From the NCBI RefSeq assembly GCF_007004545.3, contig NZ_CP045503.2:1644501-1708500 (forward strand): a stretch of 64,000 nt of DNA. The letters are read 5' to 3'. A program made the position numbers and the translations under genes. This stretch comes from Shewanella eurypsychrophilus. GTDB lineage: Bacteria > Pseudomonadota > Gammaproteobacteria > Enterobacterales > Shewanellaceae. A model generated the notes under the pieces. The model was given only the letters and a program-made list of their open reading frames with translations, searched no databases and had not been told where the DNA came from. Each line of letters opens with the position of its first letter. The first letter of the stretch is position 1. This document shows, in pieces, positions 1 to 16,750 of this stretch.

Positions 1-678
1 ACCAAATAGAGTGGCAAGCACAGCGAGAATATCAACAACATGCCCTGGCCAGCCCCAAGTACGGTCGCCTAGGATTGGATAAAAGACTGAACGCATGGAA
101 AGCGGTAAGCCTTTATTATAAGCGAAAAATGCTAAAGACAGTGACACCACGCCGTAAATCGCCCATGGGTGAAGCCCCCAGTGGAACATTGTGGCACCAA
201 GAGCCAGCTTAGCGGCTTCTGCTGTGTTTGGCTCAACATTAAGCGGTGTTTCGTACCAACCCGTAAAGTAGGCAACAGGTTCTGCAACCCCCCAAAACAT
301 TAATCCAATACCCATGCCTGCAGCAAATAACATTGCTATCCATGACATCATCGAGTAATCGGTTTTTGCTTCATCACCACCTAAACGGATTTTTCCATAT
401 GGGGAGACAATCATTGCCAAACAAAACAGGACAAAGATATTGGCAGACCACATAAACAAACCATCGAATGCCCCAATGATCTGCCATTTTATGCCATCTA
501 ATACGGATTTTGATGTTTCAGGTTCGACCAGCAATATGGCTATTAAGAAGAGTCCAATTAAGGCTGCGCTGATCCCAAAAACAGGGTTGTGAACATCAAA
601 ACCCCATTTTTGAATATTATCTTGCCCGACTGTGTAATCGGTATTATCAATACTGTATTTATCTTTTCTTGTATTCAT
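1..678 (-). CDS. BCCT-family transporter, N-terminal part (cut by window edge)
   Basis: Inner-membrane carrier of the betaine/choline/carnitine transporter family, which imports quaternary ammonium osmolytes by ion symport. The reading frame opens at an ATG whose complement is at 676-678 and runs open for 226 codons to the window edge, so only the N-terminal third or so is present. A hydrophobic segment begins around residue 32. Near residue 108 is the family signature FAAGMGIGLMFWGVAEP, followed by FHWGLHPWAIYGVVSLSLA. The upstream sequence CGAGGATCA gives a plausible ribosome site. The substrate cannot be told from this part. A second, different BCCT gene starts at 63360. Confidence 0.9.
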   Translation of the reverse strand, partial: MNTRKDKYSIDNTDYTVGQDNIQKWGFDVHNPVFGISAALIGLFLIAILLVEPETSKSVLDGIKWQIIGAFDGLFMWSANIFVLFCLAMIVSPYGKIRLGGDEAKTDYSMMSWIAMLFAAGMGIGLMFWGVAEPVAYFTGWYETPLNVEPNTAEAAKLALGATMFHWGLHPWAIYGVVSLSLAFFAYNKGLPLSMRSVFYPILGDRTWGWPGHVVDILAVLATLFG

Positions 679-1005
679 TGATCCTCGTTTAGAACAACTT
701 TCATTCGAAAAATGTGGCTTTATTTTACTTTATTAGGCGGCGACTTGCAGCCTAATGCTGAAAGCAATCACGTCTTATGCCATTTTTAGACAAAAGATTA
801 AATAATTCTTGCTTCAAGTTCTTAGTTAGTTGACCCATTAAGTGTTAAATCTATCGAATTTTAGGGACATTCTTGTGTCAGCGACGGCGATGACCCAAGG
901 CATTCCAAATCGAACAAAGAACCTGCTTGTAAATAGCCAAGTATAGATGCGGTTGTTACAGTTCGTAGGCAGAATAGAATAACATTAGAGTCAGTACTTT
1001 ATGAT
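679..1005. other. intergenic region between divergent BCCT gene and metA
   Basis: About 330 bases between the start of the minus-strand transporter gene and the MetJ boxes of metA. I see no credible reading frame, RNA gene or strong terminator. It presumably holds the transporter promoter on the minus strand, but I cannot place it with confidence. Confidence 0.4.
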
Positions 1006-1037
1006 GGACGTATGGACATCTAGAGGTCTTGATGTAT
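1006..1037 (+). promoter_or_regulatory. MetJ operator, four tandem met boxes
   Basis: Four adjacent 8-bp units end about 47 bases before the metA start: GGACGTAT (1006-1013), GGACATCT (1014-1021), AGAGGTCT (1022-1029) and TGATGTAT (1030-1037). Against the met-box consensus AGACGTCT they match at 6, 6, 7 and 5 of 8 positions by my count. Tandem 8-bp boxes directly before a methionine gene are the known binding mode of the MetJ-SAM repressor. The inference is that metA is repressed when S-adenosylmethionine is plentiful. Confidence 0.75.
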
Positions 1038-1084
1038 GATTAGGAGATAAACGATTAATCAATAGAGAGAGGATGAGACGCAGT

Positions 1085-2032
1085 ATGCCGGTTAAAATTC
1101 CCGATAATCTGCCTGCAGCAGGCATTTTAGAGTCAGAGAATATTTTCGTTATGTCCGAAACTCGGGCAGCCAATCAGGACATACGTCCGATGAAAGTATT
1201 GATCCTCAATTTGATGCCAAATAAAATTGAGACAGAAACTCAATTGCTGCGTTTACTAGGAAACACACCACTGCAGGTGGATGTGGATCTGCTCAGAATC
1301 CATGATAAAGAGTCTAAACACACGTCTATCGATCATATGAATAACTTCTATCGTGATTTTGAGGCCATTCGCCAAAAAAATTATGATGGGTTGATTATCA
1401 CAGGCGCACCGCTAGGTCAGATTGAATTTGAAGATGTGACTTACTGGGACCATATCAGAGAGATCATAGATTGGTCACAACGACATGTGACTTCTGTGCT
1501 ATTTCTTTGTTGGGCTGCTCATGCTGCTCTCTATCATTTGTATGGTTTAAACAGAAAGCTATTAGAATCTAAGCGCTCTGGCGTCTTCCTTCATCGACGC
1601 ACCAATAAGCATTTCCCTTTGCTACGGGGTTTCGATGATGAGTTTCTAGCACCTCACTCCCGTTTCGCACAAATCGATGTGGCTGCACTTAAGGCTCATC
1701 CTGCGCTGCAGGTATTAACTGAGTCTGATGAAGCGGGTGCATACATGGTGCTGAGTACAAATAGTCGAAATCTATTTGTGATGGGACACCCTGAATATCA
1801 AAAGATGACTTTGAAAGATGAGTATTTACGCGATCTTGCTGAAGGGCTCAATCCTGATATTCCGCAAAACTATTTTAGAGATAATGATCCAGATAAAGAG
1901 CCTGTAGCTCGCTGGCATGGCCATGGAAGCTTACTGGTCAGTAATTGGCTTAACTATTACGTTTATCAGTTAACGCCCTATAACCTAGATGATATGAGTG
2001 CTATTGCCCCTTGGGAAGCAGATGTTAAGTGA
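1085..2032 (+). CDS. metA: homoserine O-succinyltransferase
   Basis: Cytoplasmic enzyme for the first committed step of methionine synthesis: it transfers a succinyl group from succinyl-CoA to homoserine. The protein is 315 residues. With the start at 1085 ([10 protein letters not shown]), the catalytic cysteine falls at residue 142 ([11 protein letters not shown]) and the His/Glu pair at 235 and 237 (GHPEYQ), the positions known for E. coli MetA. That argues against the in-frame ATG at 1073. A purine-rich ribosome site GAGAGAGGA lies at 1065-1073. Four met boxes lie upstream. The C-terminal tail extends past the E. coli end with [12 protein letters not shown], and this tail is copied five times downstream. 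Confidence 0.95.
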
Positions 2033-2047
2033 GTCGTAAGTAGTGAG

Positions 2048-2482
2048 TATCAGTTAACGTCTCATATTAATCTTGATGATATGAGTGCGATTGACCCTTA
2101 GTAAGCAGATGTTTAGCGAGTCGTAAGTAGGGAGTTGTGAGTATCAGTTAACGTCTCATATTAATCTTGATGATATGAGTGCTATTGCCCCTTGGGAAGC
2201 AGATGTTAAGTGAGTCGTAAGTAGTGAGTATCAGTTAACGTCTCATATTAATCTTGATGATATGAGTGCTATTACGCCTTGGGAAGCAGATGTTTAGTGA
2301 GTCGTAAGTAGTGAGTATCAGTTAACGTCTCATATTAACCTAGACGATATGAGTGCGATTGCCCCTTGGGAAGCAGATGTTTAGTGAGTCGTAAGTAGTG
2401 AGTTGTGAGTATCAGTTAACGTCTCATATTAATCTTGATGATATGAGTGCGATTGCCCCTTGGGAAGCAGATGTTTAGTGAG
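2048..2482 (+). repeat. five tandem decayed copies of the metA 3' end
   Basis: Units begin at 2048, 2142, 2229, 2316 and 2410, each starting TATCAGTTAACG; the parental unit is in metA from 1964. Spacing is 84 to 94 bases. The 94-base spacings arise where an extra TTGTGAG is present at the unit end. Every unit still reads as the MetA C-terminus in the original frame ([14 protein letters not shown]), and four of five keep the reading to a terminal stop; the second unit of the whole array (from 2048) has an internal stop. All five extra copies share CGTCTCATATTAA, which encodes TSHIN where metA encodes TPYN. They therefore stem from a variant of the gene end and not directly from the present one. 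Confidence 0.92.
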
Positions 2483-2508
2483 CCATATTTTTACTCGATT
2501 CAACTTGC

Positions 2509-2545
2509 TAACAATAAAAATCATTTTCTATGATTTTTATTGTTA
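2509..2545. terminator. AT-rich hairpin, probable terminator after the metA repeats
   Basis: A perfect 16-bp inverted repeat, with arms TAACAATAAAAATCAT (2509-2524) and its complement (2530-2545) around the loop TTTCT. It is AT-rich and lacks a GC core, so its strength as a terminator is uncertain. It is the first strong hairpin downstream of metA. Confidence 0.5.
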
Positions 2546-2783
2546 ATCCTTTAGGCTGTGTTTGTTTGCCATTTCTGCTGCGTAGTCGCTTATACATACA
2601 GTAAAAGAGTAAAGACTCGCTGCAGAAGCAAGCATGAAAGGTCAATAGACCTTAGCTTGTTCGTCGTCATTCCACATACTCCTTCCGCTGGTAAATATTC
2701 CCTACGATTAAATTTATCTGTGTAAATTTTGAGTGACAATAATCCCCCTTGGTCACTAATCTTATATTTCTCATTACGCTTGC
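2546..2783. other. intergenic leader region before the ivd operon
   Basis: No gene is visible. A hairpin with arms AAGGTC and GACCTT (2638-2643 and 2648-2653), extended after a bulge by CAAGC/GCTTG (2629-2633 and 2655-2659), lies in the middle. The ivd promoter is expected in the last part of this interval or just after it, near the LiuR-like palindrome. Confidence 0.35.
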
Positions 2784-2799
2784 TTTACGTTCGCGTAAA
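2784..2799. promoter_or_regulatory. LiuR-like operator of the ivd operon
   Basis: Palindrome TTTACGTTCGCGTAAA with six-base arms TTTACG and CGTAAA, 79 bases before the ivdA start. It resembles the operator proposed for LiuR, the MerR-family regulator of branched-chain amino acid catabolism in Shewanella and relatives. That comparison is from memory. No liuR gene lies in this window; the MerR gene at 13498 is CueR-like. Confidence 0.5.
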
Positions 2800-2877
2800 C
2801 GTCAGAGTGCTATTCTTTAGTTATAAACTTGAACTAGATCACCTATTTTTAGTTAGCGATAAACGACGGAGCAGATA

Positions 2878-4068
2878 ATGAGTACTGAACAATTAAGCCA
2901 AGAGATCGTCATCGTAGCGGCAAAGCGTACCCCAATGGGTGGCTTTCAAGGATCCCTATCTTCCGTTCCGTCTCCAAAGTTGGCTGCGACAGCGATTAAG
3001 AGCTTAATGGTACAAACTGGGGTGGCTGCAGAGTCTATCGATGAAGTCTTGATGGGTTGTGTACTGCCTGCTGGCCTTGGTCAAGCGCCGGCACGTCAGG
3101 CGACCTTAGGTGCAGGTTTACCGCTTTGTGTTGGCGCAACCACTGTCAATAAGGTATGTGGTTCAGGCATGAAGACGGTTATGTTAGCCCATGATCTTAT
3201 CAAGGCTGGTAGTGCCGAAATTGTGATCGCTGGCGGCATGGAAAGTATGAGCCTAGCGCCTTACTTACTCGATAAAGCCCGCAGTGGTATGCGTATGGGC
3301 CACGGTAAGGTGATGGACCACATGTTCCTCGATGGTCTTGAAGATGCTTATACCGGTGGTGCTATGGGCACATTTGCTCAAAATACTGCAGATGAATTTA
3401 AAATCACCCGTGAACAGATGGATGCTTTCTCTCTGAGTTCATTAGATAAAGCCAATAAAGCTATCGACTCAGGTGCTTTTAAAGCAGAAATAGCGCCAGT
3501 CACAGTTTCGAGCCGACGCGGTGACACCCTTGTCGATACCGATGAGCAACCAGGTAATGCACGTCCCGATAAAATTCCCACACTGCGTCCAGCATTTGCT
3601 AAAGACGGTACCATTACGGCGGCAAACTCAAGTTCTATTTCTGATGGCGCCGCTGCACTAATGCTGATGACCGCAAAGCAGGCCAACGTGTTAGGTTTGC
3701 CAATACTTGCTAGCATCAAGGGCCACACGACTCATGCGCAAGAGCCTTCTCTGTTTACCACGGCACCGGTCGGCGCCATGAACAAGTTACTCGATAAGGT
3801 GAATTGGAGTAAGGATGACGTGGATCTATTCGAGATCAACGAAGCCTTCGCCATGGTAACCATGTTGGCTATCTCAGAGCTGTCTTTAGATGCATCCAAA
3901 GTGAATGTTAATGGCGGTGCGTGTGCGTTGGGCCATCCTATCGGTTGCTCTGGTTCACGTTTATTAGTCACTCTAATTCATGCCCTCAAGGCGCGCGGCC
4001 TCAAACGTGGTGTTGCATCACTGTGTATCGGTGGCGGTGAAGCCACTGCGATGGCTATTGAGGTTTAG
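2878..4068 (+). CDS. ivdA: acetyl-CoA C-acyltransferase, isoleucine degradation thiolase
   Basis: Thiolase of 396 residues. In this operon context it should cleave 2-methylacetoacetyl-CoA to propionyl-CoA and acetyl-CoA, the last step of isoleucine breakdown. The nucleophilic cysteine is at residue 94 in NKVCGSGMK. The C-terminal motifs NEAFAMV and GGACALGHPIGCSG carry the catalytic His and second Cys. ACGGAG eight bases before the ATG is the ribosome site. It is the first gene of a seven-gene set (2878-10937) in the order known as ivdABCDEFG in Shewanella. The thiolase family alone would also fit a general acetoacetyl-CoA thiolase; the specific role is inferred from neighbours. Confidence 0.88.
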   Translation: MSTEQLSQEIVIVAAKRTPMGGFQGSLSSVPSPKLAATAIKSLMVQTGVAAESIDEVLMGCVLPAGLGQAPARQATLGAGLPLCVGATTVNKVCGSGMKTVMLAHDLIKAGSAEIVIAGGMESMSLAPYLLDKARSGMRMGHGKVMDHMFLDGLEDAYTGGAMGTFAQNTADEFKITREQMDAFSLSSLDKANKAIDSGAFKAEIAPVTVSSRRGDTLVDTDEQPGNARPDKIPTLRPAFAKDGTITAANSSSISDGAAALMLMTAKQANVLGLPILASIKGHTTHAQEPSLFTTAPVGAMNKLLDKVNWSKDDVDLFEINEAFAMVTMLAISELSLDASKVNVNGGACALGHPIGCSGSRLLVTLIHALKARGLKRGVASLCIGGGEATAMAIEV

Positions 4069-4130
4069 AGGTTTTCTAGCACCTAGACCTTAGATTCTAG
4101 GCTGTGGCGTTTATGAGAAGGGATAACAAG

Positions 4131-5636
4131 ATGACGATTCAAGTGAAGCACTATATCGATGGCCAATTTATCGATGGATGCGGAGAACAGCAGATTTTGG
4201 TGACAAACCCTGCTAATAATCAAGCTATCGCCACGATTAATGCGGCGACAGTTGCAGAAGTCGAAACGGCAATTAGCAGCGCTAAAACGGCTTTTAAAAC
4301 GTGGAAAGAGGTGCCTGTTTCAGAGCGTGCTCGTGTGATGTTCAGATATCAGCATCTGCTGAAAGAGCATCATGATGAGTTGGCAACTATTCTGGCTCAA
4401 GAGACGGGTAAGACATTTGAAGATGCCAAAGGTGATGTTTGGCGTGGTATCGAAGTGGCAGAACATGCCTGTAATATTGCGACGCTAATCATGGGCGAAA
4501 CCGTTGAGAATGTTGCTAGAAGTATAGACACCTACAGTTACTCTCAGCCGCTTGGCGTATGTGCTGGTATTACCCCGTTTAATTTTCCTGCCATGATCCC
4601 ATTGTGGATGTTCCCGTTATCCATCGCCTGTGGTAACACTTTTGTGCTCAAGCCTTCAGAGCAAGATCCGATGACGCCTCAGCGTTTAGTGGAGCTATTT
4701 GAAGAAGCGGGTGCCCCTAAAGGCGTACTGCAGTTAGTTCATGGTGATAAGACGGCGGTTGATGTGCTGTTGCGTCATCAGGATATCAAGGCCATTTCTT
4801 TCGTTGGCTCTGTCGGCGTAGGTCAATATATCTATAAGACAGGCACAGATAATCTTAAGCGTGTGCAGGCATTTGCAGGGGCTAAGAATCACTGTGTCGT
4901 CATGCCTGACGCCAATAAGCAGCAAGTGATTAATAACTTAGTCGGTGCCTCCGTTGGCGCTGCAGGTCAGCGCTGTATGGCGTTATCGGTTGCCGTGTTC
5001 GTTGGCGCAGCGAAAGAGTGGATCCCTGAGTTAAAAGAGGCGATTGCTAAGGTTAAGCCTGGCCTTTGGGATGATAAAGACGCGGGTTACGGTCCACTTA
5101 TCAGCCCCGCAGCTAAAGTAAGAGTGCTCGATTTGATTGCACAAGGTAAAGCCGAAGGCGCCACGTGTTTGCTTGATGGAACTGAGTTTACAGTACCGGG
5201 ATATGAAGCGGGTAACTGGGTAGGACCGACGATGTTCAGCAAGGTCACCACAGAGATGACTATCTATAAAGAGGAAATTTTTGGCCCTGTACTGTGTTGT
5301 ATGGAAGCCGAAACTCTTGAAGAGGCGATAGGCATTGTCAATGATAGCCCTTACGGTAACGGTACCTCTATCTTTACCGCCAGTGGCGCAGTCGCACGTA
5401 AATATCAGCACGAGATTGAAGTGGGTCAGGTGGGGATCAATGTCCCAATTCCTGTGCCACTGCCGTTTTTCTCATTCACTGGCTGGAAAGGCAGTTTCTA
5501 TGGCGATCAACATGCATATGGCAAGCAGGCTGTGCGTTTCTATACCGAAACTAAGACCATCACAGCGCGTTGGTTCGAGTCGCAGATAAGCGATGCCGAG
5601 CATGCTGAGCCTAATATGACGATTACCCTGAAATAG
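4131..5636 (+). CDS. mmsA: methylmalonate-semialdehyde dehydrogenase (CoA-acylating)
   Basis: NAD- and CoA-dependent aldehyde dehydrogenase (ivdB of the ivd operon) that converts methylmalonate semialdehyde from valine into propionyl-CoA and CO2. With the ATG at 4131 the protein has 501 residues, the usual MmsA length, and AGAAGGGAT provides a ribosome site. The reading frame could extend to a GTG at 4104, but that has no such site. The catalytic cysteine sits in [30 protein letters not shown] and [19 protein letters not shown] are typical of the family. CTAG-rich intergenic sequence separates it from ivdA. Confidence 0.92.
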
Positions 5637-5754
5637 GCGACTTTAGCTGCGAGCAGCTAGCTGTAAGTTTTAAGCTGTAAGTAATGCAGTAGTTTGATGA
5701 TAAGTATAGGCTTCGAGTTTATATAAAGCGTATTCGAAGAGATAGATAACCAGT

Positions 5755-5860
5755 GTAGATGCGGCTGAGGGTATCGAAAACATGGATGTTTTCGTTAAGC
5801 GACCATGGAGGGTGTAAAGCGTCCCGAAGAAGTATCTGCACATGCCTCGCTGGCCAAGCG
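5755..5860. repeat. intergenic repeat-like element with ATGGAT dyad
   Basis: The space between mmsA and ivdC carries a compact hairpin: CGAAAACAT (5775-5783), GG, ATGTTTTCG (5786-5794). It is followed by a second, weaker dyad around ACCATGGAGGGT and then AAGCGTC. Two ACATGGATGT-like modules in a row look like a dispersed intergenic repeat of Shewanella-type genomes. That is recollection; only the dyads are directly visible. Confidence 0.4.
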
Positions 5861-5914
5861 ATAGGTTAAATTGAAACTACTGCTTTCATTTATCTAGCAA
5901 ATGAAAACTTACTG

Positions 5915-5970
5915 CGGAATACGGAATACGGAATACGGAATACGGAATACGGAATACTGAGTACTGAGTA
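5915..5970. repeat. heptanucleotide tandem repeat upstream of ivdC
   Basis: Six perfect CGGAATA units (5915-5956) are followed by two CTGAGTA units (5957-5970), eight 7-bp units in all, 72 bases before the ivdC start. It lies outside any gene. Seven is not a multiple of the DNA helical repeat or of three, so copy-number change by slippage would shift the spacing and phasing of anything upstream of it. No function is shown. Confidence 0.92.
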
Positions 5971-6042
5971 CTGATATCAACTTTGGCACTCAATATCGAG
6001 CGGAACAAATAATAAAAATAAAAAATACTTAGGAGACCTTAG

Positions 6043-7200
6043 ATGGATTTTAATCTCAGTGATGATCAGCGTCAATTTGCCGATCTAGCCCAACAGTTTT
6101 CACAAGACGAACTCGCCCCATTTGCAGCTCAATGGGACAAAGAACACCACTTTCCCAAAGATGTTATTCAACGTGCCGGAGAGCTAGGTTTTTGCTCGCT
6201 ATATTCACCGGAAAGCGAAGGCGGCATGGGGCTATCACGCCTAGATTCATCGATTATCTTCGAGCAACTTTCCATGGGCTGCACATCCACCACTGCCATG
6301 CTGACTATACACAATATGGCGACCTGGATGATCACTAGCTTTGGCTCGGAAACCTTGAGGAAAGATTGGTCTGAGCCGCTAACAACGGGTCAAAAGTTGG
6401 CTTCATACTGCCTAACCGAGGCGGGTGCGGGCAGCGATGCCGCATCACTTAAAACTAAAGCCGTAAAAGAAGGCGATGAGTATGTGATCTCTGGTGCCAA
6501 GATGTTTATCTCGGGTGCTGGCGCCACTGAAATGCTGGTGGTGATGTGCCGTACCGGCCAAGATGGCCCTAAAGGCATCTCAGCCATCGCGGTGCCAGCT
6601 GATACTGCAGGTATCACCTACGGCAAAGCGGAAGATAAGATGGGCTGGAACGCACAGCCGACTCGTGAGGTGATCTTTGATGAAGTGCGAGTACCTGTAT
6701 CGAACCTGTTAGGCGAAGAGGGTCAAGGATTCACTTTTGCGATGAAGGGCTTAGACGGCGGTCGCATCAATATCGCCACCTGCTCTGTGGGCACCGCTCA
6801 AGCAGCTCTAGAGCGTGCTACGCAATATATGAATGAGCGAAAGCAGTTCGGTAAACCCATTGCAGCGTTTCAGGCGCTGCAATTTAAACTTGCCGACATG
6901 GCAACCGAGCTAGTCGCAGCGAGGCAATTAGTGCGCCTAGCCGCTTTTAAACTCGATTGTGGCGATCCAGAAGCGACAGCTTATTGCGCCATGGCGAAAC
7001 GTTTCGCCACCGATATCGGTTTTCAAGTGTGTGATGCGGCGCTGCAACTGCATGGTGGTTATGGTTATATTCGCGAATATCCTCTAGAGCGTCACGTACG
7101 TGATGTGCGTGTACATCAGATACTGGAAGGCACTAACGAGATCATGCGCTTAATTATCGCCCGTCGTCTGCTCGATGAGAGTGCAGGACAGATTTTGTAA
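6043..7200 (+). CDS. ivdC: acyl-CoA dehydrogenase, branched short-chain
   Basis: FAD flavoprotein of 385 residues that should oxidise isobutyryl-CoA and 2-methylbutyryl-CoA in valine and isoleucine breakdown, passing electrons to ETF. CLTEAGAGSDAASLKTKA (around residue 125) and MFISGAGATEMLVVMCRT are the FAD-binding middle domain. QLHGGYGYIREYPLERHVRD and QILEGTNEIMR near the C-terminus are the classic acyl-CoA dehydrogenase end, the latter carrying the likely catalytic Glu region. TAGGAGACCTTAG before the ATG is a good ribosome site. The 406-base gap from mmsA, with repeats, leaves room for its own promoter. Substrate is inferred from the operon. Confidence 0.88.
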   Translation: MDFNLSDDQRQFADLAQQFSQDELAPFAAQWDKEHHFPKDVIQRAGELGFCSLYSPESEGGMGLSRLDSSIIFEQLSMGCTSTTAMLTIHNMATWMITSFGSETLRKDWSEPLTTGQKLASYCLTEAGAGSDAASLKTKAVKEGDEYVISGAKMFISGAGATEMLVVMCRTGQDGPKGISAIAVPADTAGITYGKAEDKMGWNAQPTREVIFDEVRVPVSNLLGEEGQGFTFAMKGLDGGRINIATCSVGTAQAALERATQYMNERKQFGKPIAAFQALQFKLADMATELVAARQLVRLAAFKLDCGDPEATAYCAMAKRFATDIGFQVCDAALQLHGGYGYIREYPLERHVRDVRVHQILEGTNEIMRLIIARRLLDESAGQIL

Positions 7201-7269
7201 CTAGCGCACTGTAACCAAACGAGAGTGATTAAAGTAGCAAGCCAGATTCGATTTAAAAGGAAGCGATAG

Positions 7270-8043
7270 ATGACAGCCTTAATAGAAGAAATTGTAGGCA
7301 ATACTGCAGTTATTACTATGAACAACCCTCCAGCTAATACTTGGACTGCTGAAAGTTTGCAACTGCTTAAAGTTAAAGTGGAAGCCCTGAATGACAATCC
7401 ACAAGTTTATGCCTTAGTGATCACGGGTGAAGGAGATAAGTTTTTCTCTGCCGGTGCCGATCTTAAACTGTTTGCCGATGGTGATAAGTCTAATGCTGCC
7501 AAAATGGCAAACTGTTTTGGCGAAGCGTTCGAAGCCTTGAGTGCGTTTACTGGCGTCTCTATCGCGGCAATCAATGGCTATGCCATGGGTGGCGGCTTAG
7601 AAGTAGCTTTAGCCTGTGATATTCGTATTGCTGAAACTCAAGCCGTTATGGCATTGCCTGAAGCGACCGTCGGCTTATTGCCCTGTGCTGGGGGAACTCA
7701 AAATCTTACAGCCCTAGTGGGAGAAGGCTGGGCTAAGCGGATGATCTTATGTGGCGAGCGAGTTGACGCAGAAAAAGCGCTGCAGTTAAAATTGGTCGAA
7801 GAAGTGGTCGATACAGGGGCTGCACTTGATACAGCAATAGCGTTAGCAGCCAAGGTGGCTAGACAAAGTCCTAGTAGCGTAAAAGCCTGTAAAACGCTGA
7901 TCCAGGCGGGTCGTAATATGCCACGAAACCATGCGTTACCTTTGGAGCGAGAGCTGTTTGCTGACTTGTTTGATACAGAAGATCAAACGGAAGGGGTTGC
8001 GGCGTTCTTAGAAAAGCGTAAGCCAAGCTGGAAGAACTGCTAA
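7270..8043 (+). CDS. ivdD: enoyl-CoA hydratase
   Basis: Crotonase-fold enzyme of 257 residues that hydrates methacrylyl-CoA and tiglyl-CoA in the valine and isoleucine routes. KFFSAGADLKLFADG and GYAMGGGLEVALACDIRI form the oxyanion-hole and CoA-binding regions. ALPEATVGLLPCAGGTQNL carries the conserved Glu. AAAAGGAAGCGATAG gives the ribosome site. Its stop shares one base with the ATG of the next gene (TAATG), so the two are probably translationally coupled. Confidence 0.88.
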   Translation: MTALIEEIVGNTAVITMNNPPANTWTAESLQLLKVKVEALNDNPQVYALVITGEGDKFFSAGADLKLFADGDKSNAAKMANCFGEAFEALSAFTGVSIAAINGYAMGGGLEVALACDIRIAETQAVMALPEATVGLLPCAGGTQNLTALVGEGWAKRMILCGERVDAEKALQLKLVEEVVDTGAALDTAIALAAKVARQSPSSVKACKTLIQAGRNMPRNHALPLERELFADLFDTEDQTEGVAAFLEKRKPSWKNC

Positions 8044-9170
8044 TGACTCATTCTACAAATAGTGTGATATTTCAAACGTTAGGTACGGTGTCTGGCAAGC
8101 AAATTGGGGTCATGACCCTGAATATGGAAAAAGCCCTTAACGCGATAAATCTTGAGATGGTTCAGTTGATGTTTGCTCAGCTCAAACTTTGGCAGAGCGA
8201 TGATGATATTGCTCTGATATTACTCGATGGGGCAGGAGAGAAAGCATTCTGTGCTGGCGGTGATGTTAGATCCATCTATCATGCATCGATTAAAGCCCCT
8301 GGTGAGGTAACCGAGCAAGCGACTGAGTTTTTCGAGCAGGAGTATCGCCTCGATCACCTAATCGATACCTATGACAAGCCTGTTCTCGTTTGGGGTAATG
8401 GTATTGTTATGGGCGGCGGTCTTGGCTTGATGATGGGCGCGAGTCACCGAGTCGTTACCGAGAACTCTCGCATTGCTATGCCTGAGGTGACGATTGGTTT
8501 ATATCCTGATGTGGGCGGCAGTTACTTTCTTAATCGCATGCCTGGCAAGCTGGGTCTATTTTTGGGTTTGACGGCTTATAATATGAATGCGGCAGATTCC
8601 AAATTTGTCGGTATAGGTAACCACTATCTTAATCATGATGACAAACAAGCCTTACTCGATAACTTGGCTACGCTAAGTTGGAGCAGTGAGGCTGCAATGA
8701 ATCATCAGCTATTGACCGACGAGCTCAATCGCTGCGGTGAACAAGGGACTGCGAACTTGCAGACTGGCCTGCTTGAAAGTCATAGGGATCAAATCAACAG
8801 GCTAGTGTCTGGCTCACTGAGCGAGATATTGCAGCGAGTGACTGAAACTGATTGTTCAGAACCTTGGCTCGAACGTCCTATCAAAACAATGTTGTCTGGC
8901 AGTCCTATTAGCTTGCAGCTTATCTACCAACAAGCTCAATTGGGGACAGACATGAGTCTGGCTGAGGTGTTTCGCTTTGAGCTGGGGTTAAGTGTTAATT
9001 GCTGCGCCGTCGGTGATTTCTCGGAAGGTGTCAGAGCATTATTGATCGATAAAGACCGTTCGCCGAAATGGTTGCATCAAGAGGTTAAGGATATTCCCGA
9101 AGCACTGATAGGTAAGATGATGTCTTCACCTTGGCAACAGGAGTCACATCCGTTATCAAATTTAGTCTAG
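8043..9170 (+). CDS. ivdE: 3-hydroxyisobutyryl-CoA hydrolase
   Basis: Crotonase-superfamily thioesterase of 375 residues, longer than hydratases, as expected for 3-hydroxyisobutyryl-CoA hydrolases. In valine breakdown it frees 3-hydroxyisobutyrate from CoA, which removes the reactive methacrylyl-CoA from the cell. FCAGGDVRSIY (around residue 71) and VMGGGLGLMMGASHRVV match the family, as does MPEVTIGLYPDVGGSYFLNR with its catalytic Glu/Asp region. The start overlaps the ivdD stop by one base. The next gene handles its product, which supports the assignment over an isomerase role. Confidence 0.88.
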   Translation: MTHSTNSVIFQTLGTVSGKQIGVMTLNMEKALNAINLEMVQLMFAQLKLWQSDDDIALILLDGAGEKAFCAGGDVRSIYHASIKAPGEVTEQATEFFEQEYRLDHLIDTYDKPVLVWGNGIVMGGGLGLMMGASHRVVTENSRIAMPEVTIGLYPDVGGSYFLNRMPGKLGLFLGLTAYNMNAADSKFVGIGNHYLNHDDKQALLDNLATLSWSSEAAMNHQLLTDELNRCGEQGTANLQTGLLESHRDQINRLVSGSLSEILQRVTETDCSEPWLERPIKTMLSGSPISLQLIYQQAQLGTDMSLAEVFRFELGLSVNCCAVGDFSEGVRALLIDKDRSPKWLHQEVKDIPEALIGKMMSSPWQQESHPLSNLV

Positions 9171-9253
9171 TTTTAGAATAAGCGAACAGGTGTTAACCCT
9201 ATTGGTATCAAATATGGTTTAGCAGGGATTTTCTTAGATTTAAGGATCAAAAG

Positions 9254-10174
9254 ATGACAACAATTGCATTTATCGGATTAGGACACATGGGTGCGCCGAT
9301 GGCGGCCAATTTAGTAAAATCAGGTGCGACAGTAAAAGTGTTTGACCTTGTTCCTGAAACGATGAAGTCGCTGACAGAGCTAGGCGCATTAAGTGCACCA
9401 ACGGCATGTGGGGCGGCGGCGGGCGCCGATGTGGTGATCACTATGCTGCCAGCGGGTAAGCATGTCCGCTCACTCTACTTAGGTGAAGGCAGCTCTGAAA
9501 AGGGTTTGCTTGATATTGTAGCTAGTGGAACCTTGTTGATCGACTGCTCAACCATAGATGCGCAAAGTGCTAAGCTGGTCGCTGAAGTGGCGGCAAGTAA
9601 AGGGTTAGAATTTATCGATGCGCCCGTATCTGGTGGTACAGCTGGTGCGGCAGCGGGGACATTAACCTTTATTTGTGGCGGCAGTGATCTAGCCTTTGAA
9701 CAAGCCTCTAAAGTGTTAACTCATATGGGCGCTAATATTTTGCATGCTGGCGGACCTGGTGCCGGTCAAGTGGCCAAGATCTGTAATAACATGCTGCTAT
9801 CAGTGTTGATGATAGCAACCAGTGAGTCTTTGCAGATGGGAATCGATCATGGCTTAGATCCTAAAGTACTTTCTGAGATAATGAAGGTCAGTAGTGGTGG
9901 TAATTGGACGCTAGATAAATATAATCCTTGTCCAGAGGTGATGGGATCAGTGCCTTCATCGAACGGCTATCAGGGCGGCTTTATGGTAGATCTTATGGTT
10001 AAAGATCTTGGCTTGTCCCAAGAAGCGGCACTGCTCTCGAATTCGAGTACGCCAATGGGCGCATTAGCTCGCAGTTTATATGTTAATCATGCTCGTCAAG
10101 GCAATGGCGAACGAGATTTTTCGAGTATTTTTGAACAATTTAATAATGTAAAACAAATTAAAAGCAAAGGGTAA
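9254..10174 (+). CDS. mmsB: 3-hydroxyisobutyrate dehydrogenase
   Basis: NAD-dependent dehydrogenase (ivdF) of 306 residues that oxidises 3-hydroxyisobutyrate to methylmalonate semialdehyde, the substrate of MmsA two genes upstream in the pathway. The N-terminal Rossmann motif is FIGLGHMGAPMAANLVKSG. The substrate-binding motif DAPVSGGTAGAAAGTL is around residue 125. GAGQVAKICNNML carries the catalytic Lys near residue 173. AAGGATCAAAAG precedes the ATG. It is followed four bases later by ivdG. Confidence 0.92.
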   Translation: MTTIAFIGLGHMGAPMAANLVKSGATVKVFDLVPETMKSLTELGALSAPTACGAAAGADVVITMLPAGKHVRSLYLGEGSSEKGLLDIVASGTLLIDCSTIDAQSAKLVAEVAASKGLEFIDAPVSGGTAGAAAGTLTFICGGSDLAFEQASKVLTHMGANILHAGGPGAGQVAKICNNMLLSVLMIATSESLQMGIDHGLDPKVLSEIMKVSSGGNWTLDKYNPCPEVMGSVPSSNGYQGGFMVDLMVKDLGLSQEAALLSNSSTPMGALARSLYVNHARQGNGERDFSSIFEQFNNVKQIKSKG

Positions 10175-10178
10175 ATCA

Positions 10179-10937
10179 ATGGACTTAAAAGATAAGGTTG
10201 TGGTCATTACTGGTGGTGCTGGTGGACTTGGTTTGGCTATGGCGTTGGATTTAGCCGAAGCCGGCGCTAAATTGGCCCTTATCGATGTCGATCAAGAGAA
10301 GCTTGAACGTGCTTGTGCCGATATTGGAGACAGGACCGAAGTGCAAGGTTATGCCTTCGATATTACCGATGAAGAAGATGTGGTCGCTGGCTTTGGTTAT
10401 ATTTTGGAAGACTTTGGTCAGGTAAACGTGTTGGTTAATAATGCCGGGATATTATTAGATGGCATGTTAGTCAAAGCCAAAGAAGGCAAGGTGACTGGTC
10501 GTATGTCATTAGAGCAGTTTCAGGCGGTGATCAATGTTAATTTAACCGGCTCATTCCTATGTGGACGTGAAGCTGCTGCTGCGATGATCGAGTCTAAGCA
10601 AGAGGGTGTGATCATCAATATCTCTAGCTTAGCTAAGGCTGGTAATGTGGGTCAGACTAATTATTCGGCGTCTAAAGCGGGTGTGGCAGCCATGTCTGTT
10701 GGCTGGGCAAAAGAGTTAGCCAGATACAATATTCGTAGTGTGGCAGTCGCTCCAGGTGTGATTGAAACTGAAATGACTGCTGCGATGAAGCCGGAAGCAT
10801 TAGAACGCCTAGAGAAAATGGTGCCAGTCGGACGTCTCGGTCAACCATCAGAGATCTCATCTACGGTGAAGTTCATCATTGAAAATGATTATGTTAATGG
10901 TCGTATATTCGAAATTGATGGTGGCATTAGAATATAG
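10179..10937 (+). CDS. ivdG: SDR-family 3-hydroxyacyl-CoA dehydrogenase
   Basis: Short-chain dehydrogenase of 252 residues. In this operon it should oxidise 3-hydroxy-2-methylbutyryl-CoA to 2-methylacetoacetyl-CoA, the substrate of IvdA, which closes the isoleucine branch. The cofactor motif VITGGAGGLGLAMAL is at the N-terminus, NNAG at residues 89-92, and the catalytic Ser and YSASK in NISSLAKAGNVGQTNYSASK. The C-terminal GGIRI is usual for the family. It begins four bases after mmsB. A strong terminator 69 bases downstream closes the operon. Confidence 0.86.
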   Translation: MDLKDKVVVITGGAGGLGLAMALDLAEAGAKLALIDVDQEKLERACADIGDRTEVQGYAFDITDEEDVVAGFGYILEDFGQVNVLVNNAGILLDGMLVKAKEGKVTGRMSLEQFQAVINVNLTGSFLCGREAAAAMIESKQEGVIINISSLAKAGNVGQTNYSASKAGVAAMSVGWAKELARYNIRSVAVAPGVIETEMTAAMKPEALERLEKMVPVGRLGQPSEISSTVKFIIENDYVNGRIFEIDGGIRI

Positions 10938-11005
10938 ACTCTAAGTGTCTAGAAACTGGGAACAAGTTCCTAGGCTCTAGTGTGTAGGACAAGTATGATC
11001 GTAAT

Positions 11006-11029
11006 AAAACGGGCCTAGGCCCGTTTTTT
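11006..11029 (+). terminator. rho-independent terminator of the ivd operon
   Basis: Stem AAAACGGGCC (11006-11015), loop TA, stem GGCCCGTTTT (11018-11027), continuing as six T in total. The GC core and T-run in the plus direction are those of a strong intrinsic terminator. Confidence 0.93.
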
Positions 11030-11126
11030 GTTTTCCCATTAACAGCATTTAACAATTAGACCTACACAAGTACTTACATAACTGCTTATGATAAGTGATA
11101 ATGTTCGATGAAAGGGGAACTGTGAG

Positions 11127-11372
11127 TTGAGGTTTGATAAGAAGATGGTTTGGTTAGAAAAAGTGACTAGAAATTTAATGTTGTTCGTTGGATTATTAGG
11201 CATTATCGTTATCTACTTGGGCTTTTTTTATCTGCTCTTCAGTGGCCGGGATACTTCGATTTTACCTTGGTATCTGCTGCTTTCCCCTTGGATTTGTGTC
11301 TTTTATGGCTTAAGTCGTAAACGGCAGTTAGAAGTCTTTGAATGGTTAAAGAAAAAAATTGTCAGAAAATAA
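11127..11372 (+). CDS. small inner-membrane protein of unknown function
   Basis: Reads 81 residues from a TTG start at 11127, with an excellent ribosome site AAAGGGGAA eight bases before it. There is no better in-frame ATG before residue 7. Two hydrophobic stretches are visible: LMLFVGLLGIIVIYLGFFYL (about residues 17-36) and ILPWYLLLSPWICVFYGL (about 45-62). A basic tail KRQLEVFEWLKKKIVRK follows. It precedes the S9 peptidase gene by 39 bases and may share its transcript. I do not recognise the family. Confidence 0.6.
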   Translation: MRFDKKMVWLEKVTRNLMLFVGLLGIIVIYLGFFYLLFSGRDTSILPWYLLLSPWICVFYGLSRKRQLEVFEWLKKKIVRK

Positions 11373-11411
11373 ATCTCAGCCAGTATATCTAGCTCTACAA
11401 AGGAGAAAATA

Positions 11412-13457
11412 ATGAAACTTCCCGTTTATGTTACTTTCATTGTTTCTATTTTTCTTATCAGTTTGCTAACGGGATGTGGAAAGCCCGATACCAGATCTGT
11501 TCAAGTTGTGGATAAGCAGGGTGGCCGAACAATTGCCCCTTATGCTAGCTGGACATCTCCCATTTCAGCCGAAGATGTGTATGGGCTATCCGATGATTTT
11601 GGCGAATTGCAGAGCGTTAATGATGCCCTTTACTTTATCCAGTCAGATTCAACGGCTGATGGTCGCATGGGAATTAAACGTTTATTAAACGATGGCTCTT
11701 TGGTCGATGCTCTGAGTGCCGAGTTTGATGTGAGGACTAAGGTTCACGAGTATGGAGGCTCGCCTTTCTTAGCGATAGGTCAGAGTATTTTTGCCTCTAA
11801 AGCTGACGACCAACTACTCTATCGTATTGCACCTAATCAATCACCTGTCCCCCTGACTTTACCTGGTACTCGTCATGCTGATTGTGTGTCATACCCCAAA
11901 GGCTCCCGCATTATCTGTATTAGAGAAGACCATAGGAAAGCGGGTGAGCCTGTGTCTAGTATCGTGGGAGTGAACCTTAATTTTGTCGCAGAAGGTGAGC
12001 CACTTGCAGAGGGGGCTGATTTTTATGCGTCACCTAAAGTCTCTCCGAATATGAAACAGTTAGCCTGGATCAGCTGGCAACATCCCAATATGCCTTGGGA
12101 TCATACTGAACTCTGGATTGGTGAGCTCGATCCTAAAGGTGGCATTCACAACAAGACTCGATTGCTGGCAGATAAGCGAGGTTCAATCACCCAACCTCTG
12201 TTCAGTCCCGATGGTGTGCTCTATTTTGTGGCAGACTTCGATAATTGGTGGAATTTATATCGTATTAGCCCCGATGGCTTATTGGAACAAGTGCTGGATA
12301 AAGATGCTGAATTTGCGGTACCCGATTGGAAGTTAGGTAATCACAATTATGCCTTTGAGTCAGAAAACACCATTGTCGCTAGTTTCATTGATAAAGGAAA
12401 AGCCTCGCTGATCCGCATCTTTCTTGATACGGGGCTCACTGAGTCCATCGCCGTCGACTTCGGGGAAATCACCCAAGTGGTCAAAGGTGAGGCAGGGATC
12501 TATTTTGTCGGTAATAAGGTGACACCTGAAAAAGGCATATACCGAGTCAATGGACGTGGCACTGAATTAATTTATTCCCCCAAGCTGACAGTGTTAGATC
12601 CAAGCTATGTATCAAGAGCCAAGAGCATCAGTTTTAAATCTGATGATGACATGACTATATATGGATATTTTTATGGTCCGAACAACCCGGATTTTATCGC
12701 TCCTAATAACACCAGACCTCCGCTAATTGTGATGCTGCATTCAGGCCCGACAGCAAAGGCCAGTTTGGCTTTTAGACGAGATATCCAGTATTGGACCAGT
12801 CGAGGCTTTGCCGTGTTGGATCTTAACTACCGTGGCAGTTCTGGTTTTGGAAGAGCTTATCGCCAAAGTCTTTATGGGGAATGGGGCAAGGCGGATGTAA
12901 AAGATGCGGTTCGAGCGGCTGGATATCTGGTTAATAAAGGCTGGGTAGATGGTACTAAACTGGCGATGAGAGGTTCGAGCGCCGGAGGTCTGACTGTGCT
13001 ATCAGCGTTGGCATTTTACGATACGTTTAAGGCTGGCGTTAGTTATGCCGGCATTAGTGATATGGCGTTATTGAGACAAGATGCTCATAAGTTTGAATCC
13101 AGTTACTTAGATCAATTAGTCGGTAAAAACAGTCCTGAGAATAATGTCTATTATGAGCGCTCGCCACTTCATCACCTTGAGGAGCTTAAAGAGCCATTAT
13201 TATTAATACAAGGGGGCGGTGACACAGTAGTTTTTACTAAGCAGTCTGTCCGAGTGTTCAATGCGCTTAAAGCCAGAGGTGTGCCAACAGCTTATTTGGA
13301 GTTTAAAGGTGAGGGCCATGCCTTAAAGCATCCGAAAAACCAAATGATATCAATAGAAGCTGAGCTCTATTTTTATGGCAAGGTGTTTGGTTTTACTCCT
13401 GCCGGTGATATCCCAAGCTTAAAAATTGAGAATGCTCACCGGCTAAATAAACACTAG
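11412..13457 (+). CDS. S9-family prolyl oligopeptidase-like lipoprotein
   Basis: Serine peptidase of the prolyl oligopeptidase/acyl-aminoacyl peptidase group, 681 residues. The N-terminus is a signal peptide with lipobox LLTGC (Cys at about residue 22), so it should be a membrane-anchored periplasmic or outer-membrane protein. Residues of about 40-400 form the predicted beta-propeller. The C-terminal third is the alpha/beta-hydrolase domain, with nucleophile MRGSSAGGLTVLS, the Asp in GGGDTVVFTK and His in KGEGHALKHP. AAAGGAGAAAATA is the ribosome site. Peptide substrates are not predictable from sequence alone. Confidence 0.88.
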   Translation: MKLPVYVTFIVSIFLISLLTGCGKPDTRSVQVVDKQGGRTIAPYASWTSPISAEDVYGLSDDFGELQSVNDALYFIQSDSTADGRMGIKRLLNDGSLVDALSAEFDVRTKVHEYGGSPFLAIGQSIFASKADDQLLYRIAPNQSPVPLTLPGTRHADCVSYPKGSRIICIREDHRKAGEPVSSIVGVNLNFVAEGEPLAEGADFYASPKVSPNMKQLAWISWQHPNMPWDHTELWIGELDPKGGIHNKTRLLADKRGSITQPLFSPDGVLYFVADFDNWWNLYRISPDGLLEQVLDKDAEFAVPDWKLGNHNYAFESENTIVASFIDKGKASLIRIFLDTGLTESIAVDFGEITQVVKGEAGIYFVGNKVTPEKGIYRVNGRGTELIYSPKLTVLDPSYVSRAKSISFKSDDDMTIYGYFYGPNNPDFIAPNNTRPPLIVMLHSGPTAKASLAFRRDIQYWTSRGFAVLDLNYRGSSGFGRAYRQSLYGEWGKADVKDAVRAAGYLVNKGWVDGTKLAMRGSSAGGLTVLSALAFYDTFKAGVSYAGISDMALLRQDAHKFESSYLDQLVGKNSPENNVYYERSPLHHLEELKEPLLLIQGGGDTVVFTKQSVRVFNALKARGVPTAYLEFKGEGHALKHPKNQMISIEAELYFYGKVFGFTPAGDIPSLKIENAHRLNKH

Positions 13458-14095: not shown

Positions 14096-16405
14096 ATGAT
14101 CATGAAAAATATCAATAGCATGACCTTATATGTGCCGCAAATGAACTGCGCCAGTTGTGTTGCCAAAATTGAAGGTGCATTTGAAAAATTATCACTGCCA
14201 GGTGTGGATACTAAAGTCGCCGCACGGGTGGCTGCACGGGTAAATTTGGCCGACAAGCAGGTACAAATCCAGGGCGATATCAGCAGTGAACTTGCCATAG
14301 CAACTGTGGCAAGTGTCGGTTATGACAGCGAACTGGTACTGGATGCTAAGCTTGCCAGCGAGAATAAAATTGAAGCTGAGCGCGTCGAGTACCGTACCCG
14401 TATCATCCAATCTATGTTTGGCTTGGGCCTAGGCGTGCCTATGATGCTGTGGGGGTTGCTAGGCGGTGAGATGATGGTGAATAACCCCAGCCAACAATTG
14501 GCTTGGGGCGCCATGGGTATAATCACATTTATCCTGCTAGTGACCACAGGTGGACACTTCTATAAGGGAATGTGGCGTGCACTTAAGGCGCGCAGTGCCA
14601 ATATGGACACCTTGATTGTGCTCGGCACCACAACCGCGTGGACCTATTCTATGCTGGTGGTGATCATGCCTTCTTGGTTTCCGCCCGAGACCCGTCATGT
14701 GTACTTTGAGGCCAGTGTGATGATCTTGGGTCTGATTAATTTAGGCCATGCGCTGGAGCTCAGGGCTAAGGGCAAGACCAGTGAAGCGGTTCAGCGCCTT
14801 CTAGGCTTGCAGGCGACCACGGCAATTAGAATATCTGAAAATGGTGACGAAGAAGTTGAAATCGCTCTAATACAAGTAGGTGACATGCTGAGACTGCAGC
14901 CTGGTAGTCGAGTCGCCTTGGACGGTAAGGTATTGAATGGTGATTCGAACCTCAATGAGTCCATGTTAACCGGTGAGCCCATTCCTGTGTCTAAAAGCGT
15001 TGGCGATACGCTCAGTGCCGGCACGGTTAACGGCAATGGCAGCATCATCTATCGTGTGACCGCTGGGTTAACCGATACGCGTCTATCAAAAATCATCGAA
15101 TTGGTTCAGCAGGCGCAAACATCAAAAATGCCCATAGGCAGGCTCACGGATAAGATATCGGCTTACTTTGTTCCTGTGGTGGTGATCATTGCCCTAGCCG
15201 CTTCTATGGTGTGGTATTTAGCGGGGCCAGCGCCTCAGATATCACATGCACTCATCGTGTTAACAAGCGTTCTTATCATAGCTTGCCCTTGCGCCCTCGG
15301 ATTAGCGACACCTATGTCTATCATGGTATCAGTCGGACGAGCCGCACAGATGGGGGTGTTAATCAAAAATGGTGAAGCGCTACAAACTGCGAGTAAAGTG
15401 ACCACTGTAGTACTAGATAAAACGGGAACCATTACAGCTGGTAAGCCATCGGTAACCGATATTCGCCTGCTTGACTGTGATGACCAAAGCGCAAGTGCAA
15501 GTGAAAGCGAGAATAAAGCCTCTGTCTCTGAGAAGCTCATATTCCTGGTGGCGAGTCTCGAGCAACATTCTGAGCACCCATTAGCCCAGGCCATGCTGGA
15601 TGCCGCCAAGACGCGAGACCTAAATTTGGTCGAACCTGAACGTTTCAACAATATTCAAGGTAAAGGCATAGTGGGCATGGTCTCTGGTGTTGAGCTGGCC
15701 ATTGGCAATATGAGTTTGATGACCATGGAGAACATATCGGGTGTCGATGCTCTACAAGATGAGGTTCAGACTTTAGCCCTGCTTGGTAATACTCCGGTTT
15801 ATGTGGCACAAGAAGGGCGCTTAGTCGCTGTTATTGCCATTAGCGACCCAGTGAAATCCGATGCCAAAGAAGCCATCGCCGCGCTTAAGCGCGCCGGTAA
15901 ACGGGTGATATTACTCAGCGGTGACAAGCAAGAGACTGTGCAGGCCGTTGCCGATGAAGTGGGCATAGACGAAGTGATTGCCGGAGTCTTGCCCGAGCAG
16001 AAACAGGCTAAGATTATCGAACTGAAAGAGAGCGGAGAAGTCGTTGCCATGGTAGGAGATGGTATCAATGATGCGCCCGCCTTAATGAGTGCCGATGTGG
16101 GTATTGCCATGGGAGATGGCACCGAAGTCGCTATCGAGAGTGCCGATTTGACCTTCCTGACCGGACGTTTGTCAGTATTAGCCGACACGTTTGCTCTGGC
16201 TAATGCCAGCATGAGGAACATCAAGCAGAACCTCTTTGGCGCGTTCATCTATAACTCTTTGGGCATCCCCGTCGCAGCAGGAGTTCTATTCCCCCTAACT
16301 GGAATATTGCTTAGCCCTGTGATTGCAGGGGCTGCGATGGCACTTTCATCCTTGACTGTGGTCACCAATGCTAATCGTTTAAGGCATGTGAAGTTAACTC
16401 GCTAG
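14096..16405 (+). CDS. copA: copper-exporting P-type ATPase
   Basis: Inner-membrane P1B-type ATPase of 769 residues that pumps Cu(I) out of the cytoplasm. Domains in order: one N-terminal metal-binding domain with MNCASC (residues 16-21), membrane helices from about residue 105, the actuator loop with LTGEPIPVSK, the membrane CPC motif in IACPCALGLATP (about 397), the phosphorylation site DKTGT (about 440), SEHPLA of the nucleotide domain, and GDGINDAPAL. The start may instead be the ATG at 14102, better spaced from TGGGGGA. Odd: a 12-base in-frame duplication (14216-14239) gives VAARVAAR in the metal-binding domain. The last 150 bases are copied twice downstream. Confidence 0.94.
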   Translation: MIMKNINSMTLYVPQMNCASCVAKIEGAFEKLSLPGVDTKVAARVAARVNLADKQVQIQGDISSELAIATVASVGYDSELVLDAKLASENKIEAERVEYRTRIIQSMFGLGLGVPMMLWGLLGGEMMVNNPSQQLAWGAMGIITFILLVTTGGHFYKGMWRALKARSANMDTLIVLGTTTAWTYSMLVVIMPSWFPPETRHVYFEASVMILGLINLGHALELRAKGKTSEAVQRLLGLQATTAIRISENGDEEVEIALIQVGDMLRLQPGSRVALDGKVLNGDSNLNESMLTGEPIPVSKSVGDTLSAGTVNGNGSIIYRVTAGLTDTRLSKIIELVQQAQTSKMPIGRLTDKISAYFVPVVVIIALAASMVWYLAGPAPQISHALIVLTSVLIIACPCALGLATPMSIMVSVGRAAQMGVLIKNGEALQTASKVTTVVLDKTGTITAGKPSVTDIRLLDCDDQSASASESENKASVSEKLIFLVASLEQHSEHPLAQAMLDAAKTRDLNLVEPERFNNIQGKGIVGMVSGVELAIGNMSLMTMENISGVDALQDEVQTLALLGNTPVYVAQEGRLVAVIAISDPVKSDAKEAIAALKRAGKRVILLSGDKQETVQAVADEVGIDEVIAGVLPEQKQAKIIELKESGEVVAMVGDGINDAPALMSADVGIAMGDGTEVAIESADLTFLTGRLSVLADTFALANASMRNIKQNLFGAFIYNSLGIPVAAGVLFPLTGILLSPVIAGAAMALSSLTVVTNANRLRHVKLTR

Positions 16406-16417
16406 TTTTATTTACCT

Positions 16418-16452
16418 ATGACAATCCGAATAAAATCTATTTGGGTTGTCAT
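16418..16452 (+). terminator. hairpin after copA
   Basis: Arms ATGACAATCCGAATA (16418-16432) and TATTTGGGTTGTCAT (16438-16452) pair at 13 of 15 positions plus G-U pairs, around AAATC. It lacks a clear T-run, so termination is uncertain. A shorter version (CCGAATA with TATTCGG) recurs in the next repeat unit near 16640, so it belongs to the duplicated segment. Confidence 0.5.
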
Positions 16453-16454
16453 GT

Positions 16455-16750
16455 ATCTATAACAGTTTGGGCATCCCCGTCGCAGCAGGAGTTCTATTCC
16501 CCCTAACTGGAATATTGCTTAGCCCTGTGATTGCAGGGGCTGCGATGGCTTTGTCCTCATTAACGGTAGTGACTAACGCTAACAGGCTAAGACATGTGAA
16601 GTTGAGCCGGTAGCTTGATTGCTGCTTGAGTCAGGAGCCCGAATAAAACCTATTCGGATAGTCATGTATCTATAACCGTTTAGGCATACCAGTTGCAGCA
16701 GGCGTCTTGTTTCCACTTACCGGAATATTACTTAGCCCTGTGATTGCAGG
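16455..16750 (+). repeat. two diverged copies of the copA 3' end
   Basis: The segment that starts ATCTATAAC in copA (16247) recurs at 16455 and 16668, with periods of 208 and 213 bases. The first copy is complete to the stop and includes the downstream hairpin region. The second stops abruptly at 16750. In the first copy about 84 bases (16466-16549) are identical to copA. Then it diverges at many third positions while encoding the same peptide ([19 protein letters not shown]) except one T to S. The second copy differs from the outset, again at silent positions ([17 protein letters not shown]). Neither copy has a start codon of its own. Confidence 0.93.

Follow-up and report, generated by a model that had tools for sequence, protein, structure and literature searches.

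A tandem array of metA 3' ends in Shewanella eurypsychrophilus suggests a lineage habit of gene-end duplication

Partial tandem duplications, which arise in bacteria generally by slippage or unequal recombination, are among the described systems closest to the locus reported here: in both, a gene-end segment is repeated head-to-tail, copy number changes in steps and the copies are homogenised. The present case differs in the unusually large number of genes affected in one lineage and in the apparent exchange of sequence between the live gene end and its copies. The C-terminal cassettes of polymorphic toxins (orphan Rhs and CdiA-CT; PMC3967940, PMC4927057) are likewise promoterless 3' ends that sit downstream of an intact gene, with which they can recombine. 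Here, however, the genes are housekeeping and transport genes, and exchange would leave function unchanged because their ends specify the same or nearly the same protein. Template switching is a known origin of hairpins (PMC8794818). In quasipalindrome template-switch mutations, a cluster of changes perfects a local imperfect inverted repeat (PMC8794818, PMC7202029), as appears to have happened at this locus; the difference is that the mutated copy would later have been amplified into an array.

The metA gene (homoserine O-succinyltransferase, 319 aa) lies at positions 1073..2032 on the forward strand of the window, the whole 64,000-nt stretch of DNA that was analysed, and its product matches NCBIfam TIGR01001 (MetA_succinyl) with 538 bits against a cut-off of 495. 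The initial annotation had described five extra tandem copies of the metA 3' end, and Tandem Repeats Finder, BLAST and an alignment of the units bear this out. Tandem Repeats Finder calls an array at 1964-2482 (period 87, 5.8 copies, score 772; periods 181 and 268 are also given), and a BLAST comparison of the metA tail with the next 1.5 kb yields five matches with E values of 4e-23 to 5e-15. These values, together with the finding of nothing comparable in 127 other congeners, exclude chance as the source of the array. Positions 2048-2482 hold five extra copies of the last 69 coding bases of metA, most with a short spacer. The copies run head-to-tail in one orientation and span the metA stop codon, forming a tandem array drawn from a gene 3' end, and the sequence downstream of the last unit is unique.

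All units read on the forward strand. Unit 0 (1964..2047, 84 nt) is metA's own 3' end, with the residues TPYN, the ending ADVK-TGA and a heptamer spacer. Unit 1 (2048..2141, 94 nt) has an extra heptamer and is the sole extra copy in the frame of metA; unit 2 (2142..2228, 87 nt) joins a TSHI-type 5' part to a 3' part identical to metA; unit 3 (2229..2315, 87 nt) and unit 4 (2316..2409, 94 nt) are of the TSHI type, as are unit 1 and unit 5 (2410..2482, 73 nt), the last of which is without the spacer. All five extra copies, and not metA, carry the TSHI variant, which is 3 nt longer, as had been noted. Four copies were said to read the same 14 residues up to a stop; this holds for those starting at 2142, 2316 and 2410, but not for the one at 2229, which reads ITPWEADV, and the copy at 2048 contains two internal stops. 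Steps of 7 nt in unit length correspond to one heptamer more or fewer in the degenerate series TAGTGAG-TCGTAAG-TAGTGAG-(TTGTGAG), and the stop codon of TAG-type units sits inside the first heptamer (TAGTGAG).

Beyond the array, a 16-bp perfect AT-rich inverted repeat (TAACAATAAAAATCAT...) at 2509..2545 is a candidate transcription terminator. It was not flagged by a terminator scan, which requires G+C pairs. If this palindrome is a terminator, the array would form part of the metA 3' untranslated region. Further downstream, TTTACGTTCGCGTAAACG at 2784-2801, upstream of a thiolase gene, is conserved in three sequences from relatives (L150, L238 and L239) and looks like a candidate regulator site for the degradation operon that follows.

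The TSHI type and its hairpin can be traced to a single cluster of changes, in which CCCTA of metA is replaced by TCTCATAT in the extra copies. Of the eight new bases, seven make up CTCATAT, an exact reverse-complement match to the ATATGAG that lies a few bases downstream; the chance of such a 7-mer in a random 8-nt replacement is about 0.01. Every extra copy has a hairpin that the metA end is without, and the core hairpin was calculated at -8.3 to -9.8 kcal/mol in the three TSHI units tested versus -0.7 in metA. We infer that the TSHI change was left by a template switch, which would cover seven of the eight new bases rather than all of them and goes with a modest p value.

The array had also been proposed to be a mosaic, and it is one. 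The site AACCTA/AATCTT stands in four-gamete conflict with GCT/GCG, with TTAAG/TTTAG and with the extra heptamer; the latter three are mutually consistent, so that the conflicts fit one exchange point. The last 60 nt of units 0 and 2 are identical, including a derived loss of the stop (TAG to AAG) that is common to these two units only; most close relatives, G085 and G014 among them, stop there. Since this shared stretch carries a derived change, exchange probably reached the live gene. Rewriting of the live metA end from the array is the simplest history, although the variable sites are few and parallel mutation is possible. Unit 4 does carry AACCTAGACGATATG, as first reported, and its metA-like codons are 21 nt identical to metA of the close relative G085 (AACCTAGACGATATGAGTGCG); of these, CTA, GAC and GCG are only partly kept in metA here. 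The units comprise only the gene's last 23-24 codons, have no start and have sequence blocks in common with the expressed gene, which, judged by sequence, would make them silent cassettes. Protein variants under diversifying selection were sought and not found, the metA end and unit 2 having the same residues apart from TPY/TSHI. A supposed synonymous excess in the metA units was dropped, as 5 of 11 point changes fall at third positions, which is close to chance.

We consider it likely that the metA array is a lineage-specific and mostly neutral tandem duplication, founded by a template-switched copy and reshaped afterwards by unequal exchange that included the live end. The metA 3'-end segment (69 coding bases plus the heptamer spacer) would first have been duplicated in tandem. 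One early copy would then have been hit by the template-switch mutation that created the hairpin. Slippage, or unequal crossing-over between sister chromosomes, would have multiplied this copy, and the spacer heptamer would have contributed the steps of 7 nt. Units, the live gene end included, would thereafter have been exchanged by recombination, leaving metA with a tail shared with unit 2 and unit 4 with codons seen in G085. The copies would persist because a duplication across the 3' end leaves the gene intact.

A second gene of the window, encoding a copper-type P-ATPase (14096..16405, forward strand), also has tandem 3'-end copies. It is followed on the same strand by silent copy 2 (16455..16613) and, downstream of that, by the truncated silent copy 3 (16668..16750). 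At this locus (14096-16750, gene and copies) the period is 208/213 nt, and every unit carries a terminator-like hairpin. Between the gene and copy 2 there are 15 synonymous codon differences and none that is nonsynonymous; all but one fall in the 3' half of the copy, a pattern very unlikely in a decaying non-coding copy. The ends of gene and copy 2 encode the same protein, with no diversification. The array is present in G072, G123 and G014, with remnants in G015, G094 and G085, and the number of extra copies ranges between species from 0 to 3 or more. In its 3' half, silent copy 2 most resembles the expressed ends found in G073 and G015 (93%), and the silent copy of G014 most resembles the expressed ATPase end of this genome and a G123 copy (89%). 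As silent ends are nearest to the expressed ends of other species, silent and expressed ATPase ends have changed places between species, whether through exchange within arrays or through import. When the ATPase is left aside, the synonymous share across the other gene-end copies is moderate, so that only the ATPase requires exchange.

The initial annotation had favoured an acquired second metA end. In one form of this reading, a horizontally acquired allele leaves a displaced or imported end recombined beside the resident gene by homology-facilitated illegitimate recombination, a known process (PMC3240628). The units do carry a variant absent from metA, and the ATPase array, with its purely synonymous differences and a silent end matching other species, is what import or old exchange would leave. 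The comparison across the genus (129 genomes, one per species, of which 128 have metA) nevertheless offers no TSHI donor. The residues T-P-Y, replaced by T-S-H-I in the extra copies, are present in 128 of 128 metA genes, so that a TSHI enzyme is unlikely ever to have been a working gene. With up to 3 mismatches allowed, a search for the TSHI pattern in DNA found only these five units and none in the other genomes of the genus; a second metA or further tail copy was sought elsewhere in the genome and not found, and a similarity search of plasmid and phage collections gave no match to the array or to TSHI. A weak tail similarity in a relative (L150; E 0.008, 38 nt) was set aside as chance. The unit codons otherwise match metA here and in G085. 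An acquired end thus finds no support, and we judge it unlikely, if not negligibly so. A single complex mutation in a duplicated copy, with exchange afterwards, accounts for the two sequence types proposed at the outset, and the unequal exchange proposed with them is supported between units and not with an acquired end as partner.

It could also be that the copies serve a function, as a 3' untranslated element whose repeated hairpins stabilise the metA mRNA or are a target for a small RNA or protein. A hairpin in each extra copy and none in the gene would suit such a role, and the stretch as a whole folds better than its shuffled versions (z -3.6), a value inflated by the repetition of one hairpin and by the palindrome at 2509-2545. 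Against this, units 3 to 5 have weak z-scores when taken singly, positions 1-12000 give no Rfam match up to E 0.5, and the array is conserved in no other species among the 127 other genomes of the genus. The DNA after metA in those genomes contains no comparable copies; the number of extra copies is thus 5 here versus 0 elsewhere. We would give a functional element only a small chance of being right.

Similar arrays occur at other genes. These were counted as ORFs of at least 100 aa with a downstream 3'-end copy reaching the stop, in 864 kb of this genome (G000; the window plus 40 sampled stretches) and 400 kb of the related G123 (stretches L311-L330). Such copies follow 6 of 633 ORFs in G000 and 10 of 259 in G123, 1 of 134 in G125 and 0 of 166 in G072. 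None reached a stop among 306 ORFs of the distant congener G011 or among 249 of diverse bacteria. G000 and G123 together differ from G011 and diverse bacteria with p 0.0005; G000 alone against G011 (6/633 versus 0/306) is not significant (p 0.19). Tails paired with shuffled downstream regions gave no copies, and copies of gene starts upstream reached the start in 2 cases versus 17 gene-end copies reaching the stop. Tandem arrays with a period of 30-300 occur at 21 per Mb in G000, about 72 in G123 and 5 in G011.

The affected genes include those for MetA, the copper-type ATPase, an MnmC2-like methyltransferase, YejK, a TonB receptor and a Dcu transporter, the last with 3'-end copies in both G000 and G123. 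Besides metA and the ATPase gene, four genes of this genome have tandem 3'-end copies directly downstream: those for the MnmC2-like protein (L259:1629-2454), the C-terminal part of Dcu (L267:17300-17995), a CBS-domain protein (L271:4108-6309) and an RND-type adaptor (L267:4236-5542). The Dcu frame at L267:17444-17995 is a 183-aa C-terminal ORF (profile positions 258-430), compared with 456 aa in G123, and is possibly a broken gene. The counts suggest that the metA array is one case of a lineage habit, the accumulation of gene tails as silent tandem copies, which at times change places with the end of the working gene. The 3' preference may be explained by survival bias, since a duplication spanning the 3' end leaves the gene whole.

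Prophages in icd integrate at the 3' end of the gene and carry a replacement end. Scars of such elements would share with these arrays gene-end copies that start shortly past the stop, some with synonymous differences, yet this origin is scarcely credible given that no integrase or element lies between the units, that the 84-94 nt spacing is regular with heptamer steps, that many unrelated genes (those for MetA, the ATPase, Dcu, the MnmC2-like protein, YejK and the TonB receptor) are affected against one site per integrase, and that the ATPase array in relatives is a clean expansion without an island.

More broadly, it is conceivable, though we would bet against it, that a specific process in one Shewanella lineage amplifies gene 3' ends at about 1-4% of genes into silent arrays that act as long-lived reservoirs, exchanging with live ends, also across species, and leaving the proteins unaltered. 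The gene-end arrays point to a mutation process that is specific to the lineage, can be counted and enlarges intergenic DNA, and the coding end of a housekeeping gene may be rewritten from neighbouring silent copies. The lineage may be the deep-sea violacea group; if it is and the process is real, part of that group's low coding density would come from such arrays. Reported coding densities are 77-80% for S. violacea, YLB-06 and S. benthica (PMC10059138).

A search of the open-access literature for gene-end arrays or for heptamer repeats in Shewanella found no description of either. Heptamer tandem repeats (for instance CGGAATA x6 and GTGCGAG x22) occur in the window at 5915-5974 and at 12 sites in the sampled stretches L240-L279, about 15 per Mb, and also lie directly 3' of metA in two sequences from relatives (L033 and L041). 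Lastly, two imperfect repeats with a tRNA 3'-end-like sequence (TTCGAATCCTC...CCGACCA) come after a tRNA-like gene end at L248:420-680.
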